Source: Nautiliaceae bacterium
GTDB taxonomy: Bacteria; Campylobacterota; Campylobacteria; Campylobacterales; Nautiliaceae
Length of the DNA: 40,715 nt
NCBI GenBank assembly: GCA_027036005.1
Contig: JALVTJ010000019.1
Span: 1 to 40,715 of the forward strand
Reading direction: 5' to 3'
A program made the position numbers and the translations under genes. The notes beneath the pieces were generated by a model. That model was not told the origin of the DNA and did not search any database. It was given only the letters and a program-made list of their open reading frames with translations. Of this stretch, positions 8,901 to 15,515 are shown piece after piece. Within the stretch, counting starts at the first letter, position 1. Every line of letters begins with the position of its first letter.

Positions 8901-9134
8901 ATGTTTGAAGAAATGATAATAGATGAAAACAATGTGGGATTTATTCCTTCTCTTGGAATATCTTTTCAGATGAACGATACGGCTAAAAAAATTATTGAGC
9001 TTATCAAAGAAGGAAAAAACAAAGAGGATATTGTTAAAATTCTTTCGGACGAATTTGACGTGAGCTGGCAAGACGTATATATTGATGTGGAAGATTTTTT
9101 TCAAAAACTTAAAGTATACGGACTTATAAAATGA
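8901..9134 (+). CDS. PqqD-like small protein (possible RiPP-recognition-element fold)
   Basis: 77 aa; pattern 'FIPSLGISFQMNDTAKKIIELIKEGKNKEDIVKILSDEFDV....VYIDVEDFFQKLKVYGLI' resembles the PqqD family. Confidence 0.7.
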   Translation: MFEEMIIDENNVGFIPSLGISFQMNDTAKKIIELIKEGKNKEDIVKILSDEFDVSWQDVYIDVEDFFQKLKVYGLIK

Positions 9135-10138
9135 AAATAGCACTAAGCGGACTAAACAATACGGATAATCCGGCTCCCGGAATTGGAGTTGCTAAAAGTT
9201 TGAAAGCTCACGATTTAATAGGGCTTAGTTATGATGCAAATGAGCCCGGAATTTATCAGGGACTATTTGAGAAAATTTATCTGATGCCTTATCCGAGTTT
9301 GGGATATGAAGAGTTTAAGCAAAGAATTACATATATAAAAGAAAAATCCGATATTGAAGTTATTATTCCCAATTTGGATGCGGAACTTCCTTTGTATATA
9401 AAATATCAAAAAGAAATTGAAGATTTGGGGATTAAGACTTATTTGCCAAGCCTTGAATGTTTTGAAATGCGCGATAAAAGCAAACTTTCGGAATTTAGCG
9501 AAAAGCTGGGTGTAAAACATCCTAAAACAATAAAAATAACTTCTCTTGACGATTTGATTATCGCAAGCAGATCCCTCGGGTTTCCTTTAATGGTAAAAGG
9601 AAATTATTATAAAGCATATAAAGCCTATAATTTGGATGAGGCGATAGAATATTATTATAAAATCTCAAACGAATGGGGATTTCCTCTTTTAGCTCAACAG
9701 GTAATAAACGGAGTTGAAATTAATTATGTAGGGCTTGGAGATGGAAAAGAGCTAATCGGAGGAGTTGGTATTAAAAAACTCTCAACAACGGAAATTGGAA
9801 AAGTTTGGAGTGCTGTAAGCATTGATAATAAAAATCTTTTTGAAGTTAGCAAAAAATTTGTAGAAACAATAGGTTGGAAGGGTGCATTTGAATTTGAGGC
9901 TATGAGCGATGGAAAGGATATTTATCTGATAGAAATAAATCCGAGATTTCCGGCTTGGGTGCATTTTGCAACAATGCTTGGAATTAATTTGCCTGAGATG
10001 ATGATAAAACTTATTAAAGGCGAAAAAGTAGAAAAAAAATATGATTATGCATTTGAAAAAATGTATATAAGATATGTTGAAGAAGCAATGGCTGATTTTA
10101 GAGATTTTACGACATTAATAAGCAAAAAAGAACTTTAA
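9131..10138 (+). CDS. ATP-grasp ligase, CarB/PylC-like
   Basis: 4-bp ATGA overlap with the PqqD-like gene; 'FPLMVKGNYYKAYKAYN', 'GAFEFEAMSDGKDIYLIEINPRFPAWVHFA' ATP-grasp motifs. Confidence 0.85.
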   Translation: MKIALSGLNNTDNPAPGIGVAKSLKAHDLIGLSYDANEPGIYQGLFEKIYLMPYPSLGYEEFKQRITYIKEKSDIEVIIPNLDAELPLYIKYQKEIEDLGIKTYLPSLECFEMRDKSKLSEFSEKLGVKHPKTIKITSLDDLIIASRSLGFPLMVKGNYYKAYKAYNLDEAIEYYYKISNEWGFPLLAQQVINGVEINYVGLGDGKELIGGVGIKKLSTTEIGKVWSAVSIDNKNLFEVSKKFVETIGWKGAFEFEAMSDGKDIYLIEINPRFPAWVHFATMLGINLPEMMIKLIKGEKVEKKYDYAFEKMYIRYVEEAMADFRDFTTLISKKEL

Positions 10139-10147
10139 GGAGAAAAA

Positions 10148-11488
10148 ATGAGTAAAAAATATGAAAAACCGGTAATAATAAAAGTTGATTTTACAATGGC
10201 GAGCAAATACGGAAGTCCACTTAAAACCCAAAAGGTTCGAAGTGAAATAGACGATGTAAACGTAAGGGATTTGGTGGAAAAATTCGGCTCGCCATTATTT
10301 GTGTATTCCCAAAGGGCAATTGAAAACAAATACAATGAATTTAAAGAGGCATTTACTTCAAGATATCCGGATACACAGTTTTGGTGGAGCTATAAAACGA
10401 ATTATCTTGATGCAATATGCAAAGTGTTTCATAAACTCGGAAGTAAAGCCGAGGTTGTAAGCGAATTTGAATATGAAAAAGCAAGAACTCTTGGAATTGA
10501 AGGGAAAGATATTATATTTAACGGGCCTTATAAACCAAAAGATGCACTTAAAAAAGCCGTTGAAGAAGGAGCGAAAATACATATCGATCATTGGTATGAG
10601 ATAAATGACCTTGAAGAGATTGCCAAAGAGCTTGGAAAAGAGATCCCGGTGGCTATAAGATGTAATATGAATACGGGAGTTTATCCGCAATGGAGCAGAT
10701 TCGGATTTAATATTGATAACGGCGAGGCGATGGATGCGATAAAAAGAATATTTGAAGGCAAAAAACTTATTTTAACAGGGCTTCATTCTCATATCGGAAC
10801 GTTTATGTTAAGTGCGGCGGCTTACGGAGCGGAAGTTAGAAAACTTATTGAACTTAAAAACATGATCGAAGAAAATTTCGGATACGAGATTGAATATATT
10901 GATATAGGCGGGGGATTTGCAAGCAAAAACAGACTAAAAGGTGTTTATCAATCGCCAGAAGTTATAGTTCCGAGTGCTGATGAATATGCAGAGGCTATTA
11001 CCAATGCTATTTTTGAATTTAACAAAGGAAAACTTCCTAAGCTTTATCTTGAAACTGGTAGGGCATTAATTGACGAAGCAGGGTATCTGCTTACAAGTGT
11101 GTGGGCAGGCAAAAGAATGCCTGATGGCAAAAAAAGTTATATTGTAGATGCGGGAGTAAATCTGCTTTATACTGCGTTTTGGTATAATTTCGATATAGCC
11201 CTTGATAAAAGATATGAAGGACTTAATGAACCTTCAATGATAAATGGACCGCTTTGTATGAATATTGATGTTATTTCCGAAAATATTATGCTACCGCCTC
11301 TAAATAGAGGGAGTGTTTTAAGTATTTGGCCGGTTGGAGCTTATAATGTTACTCAATCAATGCAGTTTATCAGATATAGACCGAGAATAGTCTTAATAGA
11401 TAAAGATTCAAACCCTCATTTGATAAAGGAGGCTGACGATTTGGATTATGTCAGAGAAAAAGAGATATTGCCTGAATATTTAAAGTGA
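10148..11488 (+). CDS. Fold-type III PLP-dependent decarboxylase (diaminopimelate decarboxylase-like) with about 40-residue N-terminal extension
   Basis: 'FGSPLFVYSQRAIENKYNEF', PLP lysine context 'WWSYKTNYLDAI', 'LHSHIGT', 'IDIGGGFA', 'LETGRALIDEAG', 'GPLCMNIDVI'. Confidence 0.88.
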   Translation: MSKKYEKPVIIKVDFTMASKYGSPLKTQKVRSEIDDVNVRDLVEKFGSPLFVYSQRAIENKYNEFKEAFTSRYPDTQFWWSYKTNYLDAICKVFHKLGSKAEVVSEFEYEKARTLGIEGKDIIFNGPYKPKDALKKAVEEGAKIHIDHWYEINDLEEIAKELGKEIPVAIRCNMNTGVYPQWSRFGFNIDNGEAMDAIKRIFEGKKLILTGLHSHIGTFMLSAAAYGAEVRKLIELKNMIEENFGYEIEYIDIGGGFASKNRLKGVYQSPEVIVPSADEYAEAITNAIFEFNKGKLPKLYLETGRALIDEAGYLLTSVWAGKRMPDGKKSYIVDAGVNLLYTAFWYNFDIALDKRYEGLNEPSMINGPLCMNIDVISENIMLPPLNRGSVLSIWPVGAYNVTQSMQFIRYRPRIVLIDKDSNPHLIKEADDLDYVREKEILPEYLK

Positions 11489-11492
11489 GCTA

Positions 11493-13496
11493 ATGGATAA
11501 AATAAAGCTTTTTTTCAAACCCTATGTTTCAATTCTTTTTTTAAGGGATTTTAAGGCTGGGTTTGTTTTGTTTTTGCTCTCTTTTTTACTTCCGAGTGTG
11601 GGTTTGCTTGGAATTGTAGCAATTATTTCAACTATTGCTTTTGCGGAAATTGCAGGTGTAAGAGAGCATTATTTAAAATACGGATTTTATTTATATAACT
11701 CTTTACTTGTCGGAATGGGTGTGGGGTATTTTTTTGATGTTAGTTTATTAAGTGTTATTTTAACGTCCATATTAGCGGTTTTGACATTTTTAATCTCTTT
11801 CGGATTAAATAGAATGTTTATCAATTTTGCCCTGCCTATACTCTCTTTTCCTTTCGCAATTGTAAGTATGCTTTTTTATTTGGCAAGTTTAAAATATAAT
11901 TCCTTAGTTACAAATATTTTACACAGAGTTCCTTTATTTGATATGAATTTGCCGTTTAGTGCGTTTTTCAAATCGATGGGAACGATTTTTTTCCTGCCTT
12001 ATAATATAGCCGGTTTAATTATTTCGTTGATTATTCTTTTTTATTCGAGAATTTTGTTTTTTTTAGCCGTAATAGGATTTATTGCGGGAGTTTGGGTTCA
12101 TTCTTTTTTTATACCTTTTAATGCGTCTTTAAATTCTTTTTATAATTTTAATTTTATTTTAATTTCGATGGCTTTGGGCGGAATATTTTTAATTCCTAAT
12201 ATCAGAAGTTATGTTATAGCTATAATTGCCGTTATTTTATCCGTAATTTTAATTGATGCTTTTGTTGTGTTTTTTAATCTTTATTTACTTCCTGTTTATA
12301 CGCTTCCTTTTAATATGATAACTACTCTTTTTATTTTGCTTGCAAGTATCGGGTATAAATATTTCAATTATTTCATTAAGGGAACTCCTGAAAAATCGCT
12401 TGAATATTATCTTTCAAACATTTTCAGATTCGGCGGAAAAGATATTAAAATAAATCTACCTTTTTCAGGTAAATGGAGTGTATATCAGGCGTTTGACGAT
12501 GAATGGACGCATAAGGGGGAGTATAAATATGCTTATGATTTTGTTATTAAAATAAACAATAAAACACATCAAAACGAAGGGACATTGTTGGAGGATTATT
12601 ATGCCTTTGGCGAGCCGGTTCTCGCTCCTATTAGCGGATATGTGGTTGCAATGAGAGATGATTTGGAAGATAATTTTATAGGGAATGTGGATAGAATAAA
12701 TAATTGGGGTAATTACATCATTATAAAAAGTTTAGACGGAACTTTTTATGTTGAAATTTCACACTTAATGAAAAATTCAATTACCGTTAAGGTAGGTGAT
12801 TATGTTCAAATGGGTCAAATTATTGGAAAATGCGGTAACAGCGGTTATTCTCCCGAACCTCACATACATATACAAGTTCAATTCTCACCTGTTCTAGGAA
12901 GTAAAACCGTGCCTTTTAAATTTATGGATTATATAAAAGGAAATAAGCTTTATTATTATTCTCTGCCGAAAAAAGACGAAGAGATAGAAGCGACAATCGT
13001 AGATAAAACAATTAGAATAAGGTTTAATTTTATTCTTGATGATAGTTTTATTTATGAAATATATGAAAATAATGAAAAAATAGATGAAATAAAATTCAGC
13101 GTTAAAATGAACGAAAAAGGAGAATTTTATTTTACGGATGGAGAAAACAGATTATATTTTTATTTAAGCGAAAAGATGTTTTATTTTTATGAATACGACG
13201 GAGGGAAAAGTTATTTAAAAGAAATTTTTAAACTCTCTCCCAGAATTCCTTTAATAAACAAAAATATAGTATATAAAGATATTTTGCCTGTAAATATTAT
13301 TAAAGGATTTGAAAAATATTTGATTGAATTTTTACTCTCATTTAATTATAATTTATTCAATAAACCAATAGAATATGAAAAAAAGCCTTTGGAGATAGTT
13401 TCAAAATTTGGTAAAGTTACTTTTTCTTTTTATGAAAAAGGATTTAAAACGATTGAATTTAAAAATAAAAAACTTATTTTAAGGAATGAAAAATGA
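11493..13496 (+). CDS. Urea-transporter-like membrane domain fused to a C-terminal M23/LytM-like domain
   Basis: N-terminal polytopic region with 'YNSLLVGMGVGYFF' and 'LPILSFPFAIVSMLFY' (UT family-like); C-terminal 'GEPVLAPISGYVVAMRDD...NWGNYIIIKS...YVEISHLMKNSITVKVGDYVQMGQIIGKCGNSGYSPEPHIHIQ' (M23). Confidence 0.8.
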   Translation: MDKIKLFFKPYVSILFLRDFKAGFVLFLLSFLLPSVGLLGIVAIISTIAFAEIAGVREHYLKYGFYLYNSLLVGMGVGYFFDVSLLSVILTSILAVLTFLISFGLNRMFINFALPILSFPFAIVSMLFYLASLKYNSLVTNILHRVPLFDMNLPFSAFFKSMGTIFFLPYNIAGLIISLIILFYSRILFFLAVIGFIAGVWVHSFFIPFNASLNSFYNFNFILISMALGGIFLIPNIRSYVIAIIAVILSVILIDAFVVFFNLYLLPVYTLPFNMITTLFILLASIGYKYFNYFIKGTPEKSLEYYLSNIFRFGGKDIKINLPFSGKWSVYQAFDDEWTHKGEYKYAYDFVIKINNKTHQNEGTLLEDYYAFGEPVLAPISGYVVAMRDDLEDNFIGNVDRINNWGNYIIIKSLDGTFYVEISHLMKNSITVKVGDYVQMGQIIGKCGNSGYSPEPHIHIQVQFSPVLGSKTVPFKFMDYIKGNKLYYYSLPKKDEEIEATIVDKTIRIRFNFILDDSFIYEIYENNEKIDEIKFSVKMNEKGEFYFTDGENRLYFYLSEKMFYFYEYDGGKSYLKEIFKLSPRIPLINKNIVYKDILPVNIIKGFEKYLIEFLLSFNYNLFNKPIEYEKKPLEIVSKFGKVTFSFYEKGFKTIEFKNKKLILRNEK

Positions 13497-14089
13497 AAAA
13501 GTTAATTGTTTTTTTGGCTGTTTTTTTATTTGCATTTTCCAATAAAGATATTCAACAAATCTATTATAAATCCTATAATTATGAAAAAATGGGGGATTAT
13601 AAAGACGCTATTAAAATATTAATTCCTCTTTATAATAAATATCCAAAAGGCTATACGATTAATTTAAGACTCGGATGGCTTTTTTATTTGAATAAAGATT
13701 ATATAAATTCAATAAAACATTATCAAAAAGCTTCTTTGGTTATGCCTTATTCTGTTGAACCTAAACTAGGTCTTATGAGGGATTATATTGCTATGCAGAA
13801 TTATAAAAACGCTTTAAAAGTAGGTAATTTGATTTTAAGAGAGGATTATTACAATTATTATGGCAATTATTATGAAATATTGGCTTTAAAAGGGATAAAA
13901 GATTATAAAAACGCTTTAAAAATAACAAATAGAATGTTGACTCTTTATCCGACATCGGTTTTATATTTAAATTCTCTGGGTGAAATTTATTATGTAAGCT
14001 CTAAAAAAGATTTGGCAAAAAAAATATTTGAAGATGTATTGATACTTGATCCTAATAATGTTTTTGCAAAGAGTTATATTCAAAAATGA
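13493..14089 (+). CDS. Secreted/periplasmic TPR-repeat protein
   Basis: N-terminal signal-like 'MKKLIVFLAVFLFAFS'; TPR-like helices 'YKDAIKILIPLYNKYPKGYTINLRLGWLFYLNKDYINSIKHYQKASLVMP'; 4-bp overlaps with both neighbours. Confidence 0.78.
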   Translation: MKKLIVFLAVFLFAFSNKDIQQIYYKSYNYEKMGDYKDAIKILIPLYNKYPKGYTINLRLGWLFYLNKDYINSIKHYQKASLVMPYSVEPKLGLMRDYIAMQNYKNALKVGNLILREDYYNYYGNYYEILALKGIKDYKNALKITNRMLTLYPTSVLYLNSLGEIYYVSSKKDLAKKIFEDVLILDPNNVFAKSYIQK

Positions 14090-14681: not shown

Positions 14682-15515
14682 ATGAAAAAATTACTTTCAA
14701 TCGCTTTACTTGCGAGTTTGGGTTTTAGTGCAGAATTTACTTTGATGCCTTATGGTAGTTATATCAATTATTCGGGTTCTAGTAAAGATAATGCAAAACT
14801 TGGCGGAATTTATTTAAGCTGCTTTAATTCTCCTTTTAAATTAGAAACCGACGGAGAATTTTTAAAAATAAATTACAAAGACGGAATTGCTAATTATTAT
14901 CAAAGAGATTTGACATTTATAGGGCATTATTATATCGGGGACAATTATGAAGTGCATGCAGGTATTCATAATATTTTTATTACGCAAGCAGATAATCCCA
15001 ATCATTATCAAAAAGTTTTATTTGGAGGTGTTTTATATTATAAATATTTGAAATACAATACTGGAATTGATTATTATTATTCCGATTATAGTGGATTTGA
15101 TGTTAAGCAGATAACTCCTAAATTGGGATTTAATTTCGGTAATTATTATTCATATACAGGCTCTTTTTATGCAGAGGCAAAAGTTAATTATATTAATATT
15201 TCAGATAAAACAAAAGCCGGAACTCCGGATGATAATTATTGGAATACCGATTTAAAACTTTCTAATTTCCAAGGTCCATGGACTACAACTTTAAAAGCTT
15301 CTCTTGGTAAATATGCTTATAAAGTGGCAAACGGGGGATTTGTGGTTTATAATTTGGGTGATGAATACAAATACTCTTACGGCATAGATATAAATTATGC
15401 CCTTTCAAAACAAAACAGTATTAAAGCCGGATTTACAAGAAGTAAATTTGATGAATCTGATAATAACGATTGTTACTCAAATACATTTTTGGTTTCGTTT
15501 GTTACTTCTTTTTAA
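14682..15515 (+). CDS. Predicted outer-membrane beta-barrel protein
   Basis: Signal peptide 'MKKLLSIALLASLGFSAEF', alternating aromatic/polar strands, C-terminal Phe ('FVTSF'). Confidence 0.65.
   Translation: MKKLLSIALLASLGFSAEFTLMPYGSYINYSGSSKDNAKLGGIYLSCFNSPFKLETDGEFLKINYKDGIANYYQRDLTFIGHYYIGDNYEVHAGIHNIFITQADNPNHYQKVLFGGVLYYKYLKYNTGIDYYYSDYSGFDVKQITPKLGFNFGNYYSYTGSFYAEAKVNYINISDKTKAGTPDDNYWNTDLKLSNFQGPWTTTLKASLGKYAYKVANGGFVVYNLGDEYKYSYGIDINYALSKQNSIKAGFTRSKFDESDNNDCYSNTFLVSFVTSF

Follow-up and report, generated by a model that had tools for sequence, protein, structure and literature searches.

The N-terminal tail of a decarboxylase (DEC) from a deep-sea bacterium is probably a RiPP-leader-type recognition peptide for the PqqD-like protein encoded beside it, and most likely serves as a docking tag that holds DEC together with an ATP-grasp ligase. 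This reading rests on about 90 related gene sets, drawn from at least seven phyla, that were compared with one another. Comparative evidence supports the existence of the tail, its conservation, and its occurrence together with an RRE, as well as a residue covariation consistent with contact between the two proteins. Inferred are the participation of the ATP-grasp ligase in this complex, the sequence of the reactions, and a membrane step; no substrate has been identified, and nothing shows directly that the ATP-grasp belongs to the complex.

The window is the whole 40,715-nucleotide stretch of Nautiliaceae DNA analyzed, and the operon lies on its forward strand. The first gene encodes the 77-residue PqqD-like protein, a discrete RRE (8901–9134; PF05402, E = 7e-12), which confirms the PqqD-like gene of the preliminary description. 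It is followed by a 335-residue ATP-grasp ligase (9131–10138; PF15632 and carbamoyl-phosphate-synthase-like matches), the 446-residue fold-type III PLP decarboxylase DEC (10148–11488), a fourth conserved gene that joins a urea-transporter-like membrane domain to an M23 metallopeptidase domain (11493–13496; PF03253, E = 1e-57; PF01551, E = 7e-13), and a TPR protein (13493–14089) that is a frequent, not universal, neighbor (28 of 36 loci). The gaps between cfa and PqqD, PqqD and ATP-grasp, and ATP-grasp and DEC are 49, −4, and 9 bases, the ATP-grasp start overlapping the PqqD stop (ATGA). These gaps leave no space for a separate precursor ORF among the four genes, and the earlier statement that none lies between cfa and the PqqD-like gene was correct. 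The operon therefore lacks the precursor peptide gene expected of a RiPP cluster, and the tail profile is unique in the window's genome; an unrelated, unlinked precursor elsewhere is not excluded. The Asn-synthetase-like cyclase and B2 protease that define a lasso cluster were not found nearby either, the recurrent neighbors being the ATP-grasp, the decarboxylase, the transporter–M23 fusion, and the TPR protein. The cfa gene was rejected as a member of the system since it adjoins the operon only in the closest relatives, and no viral copies of the system were found. Further downstream, a 277-residue protein (14682–15512) has no Pfam match, a signal-peptide-like start, and a barrel-like C-terminal Phe; it is conserved in Campylobacterota loci only (12 loci).

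Translation of DEC from its ATG begins MSKKYEKPVIIKVDFTMASKYGSPL, and the start has a good ribosome-binding site, the Shine-Dalgarno sequence AAGGAG at 10137–10142. The N terminus reads MSKKYEKPVIIKVDFTMASKYG, exactly as first quoted, and contains the lasso-type YxxPx(I/L/V) motif as YEKPVI, residues Y5 to I10 (10160–10177). A second motif, SKYG, spans residues 19–22 (10202–10213) and corresponds to NKFG in the family consensus. In the AlphaFold2 monomer model computed on the family alignment, residues 1–25 are predicted to be disordered (pLDDT about 40), the fold starts near residue 30, and the remainder is a confident decarboxylase fold. Residues 1–30 (10148–10237) were assigned to the disordered tail from the pLDDT and from conservation in family members. 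The NCBIfam lysA match begins at residue 27, the Pfam decarboxylase domain at residue 57. The match starts and the model together give a free tail of about 28 residues, shorter than the roughly 40 proposed initially. A misread start codon was considered as the origin of the tail and rejected on the ribosome-binding site and the conservation.

The YxxP tail characterizes the family as a whole. When 84,980 species genomes were scanned, 32 loci were found in named phyla (Campylobacterota, Bdellovibrionota, Myxococcota, Bacteroidota, Spirochaetota, Verrucomicrobiota, and Kiritimatiellota), and every DEC with an intact start had an aromatic-or-Leu-xxP motif. Six phylum samples totaling 1,382 genomes were searched with the DEC family profile, and the family was found in 16/249 Campylobacterota, 6/288 of the Verrucomicrobiota group, 30/345 Bacteroidota, 15/188 Myxococcota, 5/120 Spirochaetota, and 8/192 Bdellovibrionota. 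Broken or truncated genes aside, family members match from profile position 1–4 with about 480–740 bits; the next matches seen are LysA-like, score about 200 bits, and start at position 18 or later. Among 89 tails, with one genome entering twice, the first motif residue is Tyr in 80, Phe in 8, and Leu in 1, Pro is invariant (89/89), and the last residue is Ile in 72, Leu in 13, and Val in 4. The Lys of the second motif is aligned in 81 and the Gly in 74. A profile of the tail alone, run against the 249 Campylobacterota genomes, returned DEC genes only, plus one weak 19-residue match. The conservation of these positions across several phyla and the specificity of the tail profile place the motif beyond chance. 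The tail is absent from LysA-like paralogues of four genomes, the window's among them, and the flanking DNA examined contained no PqqD. Many of the loci come from MAGs.

The KYGSPL/KFGSPL echo noted in the preliminary description is present in the tail, but it is not a trait of the family. It is confined to Campylobacterota tails and absent from other phyla; the tails of most homologues have NKFG, NKMG, or NPxG, and KFGSPLF is a motif of the domain. A duplicated internal element was rejected on these grounds. Two irregularities concern gene copies. Equal-scoring decarboxylase copies near both ends of one contig of genome G667 (C1:2580–3917 and C1:3733996–3735333) probably represent the overlap of a circular chromosome. 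In two Campylobacterota genomes (G224, locus L036; G053, locus L048) the decarboxylase is split by frame changes, through error or recent loss, and PqqD and ATP-grasp are intact.

The window's genome encodes exactly one PqqD, the sole PF05402 match, so a second RRE of that family is not available as an explanation. The best PDB matches to the PqqD profile were TfuB1 (2.7e-11) and TbiB1 (1.7e-10), followed by 9x90 and 9x8z, which are deposited PqqD-family proteins. The predicted model (AlphaFold2 pLDDT 88.7) most closely matched the leader-bound structures of TbiB1 and TfuB1 (TM 0.79–0.84). The winged-helix fold and the PF05402 match satisfy the definition of an RRE fold, and the residues of the leader pocket are conserved: D62 in 75/86, F66 in 81/86, and N25 in 77/85. 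The LppB structure has a hydrogen bond from Asp70 to the leader Tyr (Tyr-16), with Phe74 packed against the Pro and the kink held in place by Asn33 (PMC13381572). Alignments identify D62, F66, and N25 as the equivalents of LppB Asp70, Phe74, and Asn33; the transfer of LppB numbering to 9x8z is our own reading of the alignment. The assignment of Asp62 (9084–9086) draws on the alignments, the published text on the LppB structure, and the covariation described below. Judged by its profile matches and predicted fold, the PqqD-like protein is a lasso B1-type RRE.

A PqqD gene accompanied every DEC locus for which upstream DNA or a genome could be searched. It lies upstream of DEC at all loci of the Campylobacterota set, and in the first set at every locus with upstream DNA except one. 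At that locus (L023, genome G253) the cluster is split, with the decarboxylase and transporter on one contig and PqqD and ATP-grasp on another (L061). PqqD is about 1.9 kb upstream and not adjacent in G798, a contig break separates it from DEC in G1221, and its frame was recognized only in part at L112. The preliminary description had suggested checking whether the extension exists only where a PqqD gene is adjacent. Adjacency is broken in G253, G798, and G1221, but each of these three genomes contains PqqD. The refuting case that had been defined, a tail without PqqD, was not found wherever upstream DNA or genome was searchable. No natural PqqD-decarboxylase fusion was seen.

Across the family, DEC is accompanied by PqqD, ATP-grasp, and a urea-transporter-like protein that in most cases carries the M23 peptidase domain. 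Two divergent Bdellovibrionota clusters (L156:8395–12741 and L157:602–4879) keep the YxxP motif and PqqD; they contain a tandem pair of ATP-grasps, with a Sir2-like gene immediately downstream. Their urea-transporter-like protein is shorter and aligns with the transporter portion of the profile but not with the M23 portion. These sequences suggest a core set of PqqD, ATP-grasp, DEC, and the transporter-like protein. The transporter–M23 fusion is kept with the DEC cluster across phyla, and its M23 metal ligands (H, D, HxH) are invariant in 33 homologues; the peptidase domain is thus probably active where present, as far as its ligands indicate. No description of the gene set, including a urea transporter with an M23 peptidase, was found in the literature searched, which did not cover most subscription journals or preprints.

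The nearest solved relative of DEC is FigC, an N-citrylornithine decarboxylase (7kh2, 1e-95; LysA, 5e-68), which is also closest by fold. DEC keeps the catalytic residues and has the GPxCM loop of FigC (GPLCMNID in DEC), not the CESxD loop of LysA. It scores 229.4 bits against the LysA equivalog cut-off of 297.9, and a DapDC (LysA) function was rejected on the specificity loop and the score. The NCBIfam FslC cut-off is not reached either (225 versus 500 bits). A more LysA-like paralogue in the window's genome is 29% identical to DEC and has no tail. The ATP-grasp is of the carbamoyl-phosphate-synthase-like type with an invariant ExNPR motif (E268, N270, R272). FigC has been grouped with SbnH, AcsE, MccE, and BtrK, enzymes that decarboxylate amino acids already joined to a larger moiety, which in the case of BtrK is a carrier (PMC7857480).

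By analogy to this group, conjugation followed by decarboxylation in a PqqD-organized complex is the simplest model. PqqD would grip the YxxPx(I/L/V) strand of the tail and so keep the decarboxylase and the ATP-grasp ligase together in one complex. The ligase would couple an amino acid to a partner bearing a carboxylate or an amine, after which the tethered enzyme would decarboxylate the conjugated amino acid in the manner of FigC, SbnH, MccE, and BtrK. Subsequent handling of the product at the inner membrane would fall to the urea-transporter-like protein, together with its M23 peptidase domain in most members.

The conservation of the second motif, N/S-K-x-G, exceeds what a pure docking tag would strictly need, and it fits a substrate or carrier as well. 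It is possible, though unlikely, that the tail is itself modified: PqqD would present it to the ATP-grasp, an amino acid would be loaded, perhaps on the NKxG Lys, and the loaded residue would be decarboxylated in cis. This would amount to a ribosomal counterpart of the carrier pathway formed by BtrI/BtrJ/BtrK, or to a fusion of precursor and enzyme that modifies itself. The second motif follows the leader motif by about 10 residues, roughly where a lasso leader ends, the operon has no other precursor and includes an ATP-grasp and an M23 peptidase, and BtrK sets the example of acting on a carrier-bound residue (PMC7857480). However, the Lys is not invariant and is replaced by Pro in five PVC and two Bdellovibrionota loci, the segment after the motif varies in length and sequence in some Campylobacterota, and evidence for modification is lacking.

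The Tyr of the tail covaries with Asp62 in the RRE pocket. In 84 PqqD-DEC pairs, a tail Tyr is accompanied by PqqD Asp in 73, Glu in 1, and Asn in 1, and the Phe/Leu tails by Tyr, His, Gly, Ser, or Ala (9/9 non-acidic). Six further Bdellovibrionota pairs agree (five Tyr-Asp, one Tyr-Glu), which gives 81/81 Tyr tails with Asp/Glu/Asn and 9/9 Phe/Leu tails with a non-acidic residue. An unguided scan of all PqqD × DEC columns (82 sequences, effective number 64) ranked Asp62-Tyr first of 34,124 inter-protein column pairs, at 0.54 versus 0.32 for the next pair, with a normalized MI-APC z of 19.6. This pair is the contact described for LppB Asp70 and leader Tyr-16 (PMC13381572). The Fisher test of Asp62 against tail Tyr over the 84 pairs, uncorrected for phylogeny, gives p = 2.7e-11. 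This value overstates the evidence because the switch amounts to about two independent events, one in a PVC clade and one in a Bacteroidota clade, on a tree of DEC and ATP-grasp with the tail left out; a test on independent pairs had only 3 pairs, too few for significance.

So few switches leave some room for the covariation to be lineage history and the tail a dimer-stabilizing or regulatory arm of the decarboxylase unrelated to PqqD. We regard this as improbable, since the covarying pair was predicted beforehand from RRE-leader structures and outranks the others by a wide margin, and the tail is predicted to be disordered rather than packed on the enzyme in the monomer model. Least credible is a conventional RiPP pathway whose precursor is encoded elsewhere in the genome, with the tail imitating a leader and thereby inhibiting or autoregulating the RRE. 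Precursors are what RREs normally serve (PMC12710340), but they are usually encoded nearby; no second protein of the window's genome matches the tail profile, and the Asp-Tyr covariation links PqqD with the decarboxylase itself. According to the preliminary description, the PqqD-like protein might serve either to dock the enzyme or to have it modified. Docking is supported by the presence of PqqD wherever it could be searched for and by the covariation of an RRE residue with the tail Tyr/Phe/Leu; modification via PqqD is neither shown nor excluded. We conclude that the tail is very likely bound by the adjacent PqqD, an inference made without binding data or a model of the complex.

RREs serve as beacons for finding peptide natural products. 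The evident pairing of a widespread RRE with an enzyme indicates that a leader motif can assemble a metabolic complex, or make an enzyme a carrier, and explains an RRE cluster without a precursor gene. A leader-type label borne by an enzyme and read by an adjacent helper protein would be a new use of such labels, in an apparently undescribed four-gene pathway found in all the phyla named above. If the tail is instead a carrier, a new biosynthetic logic would be spread over at least seven phyla.

DEC resembles LysA in fold and PLP chemistry, and shares its catalytic residues and GPxCM loop with the group of FigC/FslC, SbnH, AcsE, MccE, and BtrK. FigC differs in that its alignment leaves out the first 17 positions of the profile, the YxxP region, and in its partner, a NIS synthetase rather than an ATP-grasp. 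The butirosin enzymes BtrI, BtrJ, and BtrK likewise combine a ligase, a FigC-type decarboxylase, and a small partner protein, and BtrJ is an ATP-grasp ligase. The small protein BtrI is an acyl carrier protein, whereas that of the DEC cluster is an RRE. Borosin precursors such as omphalotin OphMA carry precursor and enzyme on one chain and are a precedent for a tail that is substrate; their enzyme is an unrelated methyltransferase, and the core is at the C terminus. The lasso RREs TbiB1, TfuB1/FusB1, and PbaB1, along with LppB, share with the PqqD-like protein the RRE fold, the Asp-x3-Phe pocket, the Asn before helix 1, and a YxxPx(L/I/V) partner peptide (Y/WxxP leaders in those systems). The DEC cluster has no lasso cyclase or B2 protease, and the partner peptide of its PqqD is not a small precursor but the N terminus of a 446-residue enzyme.
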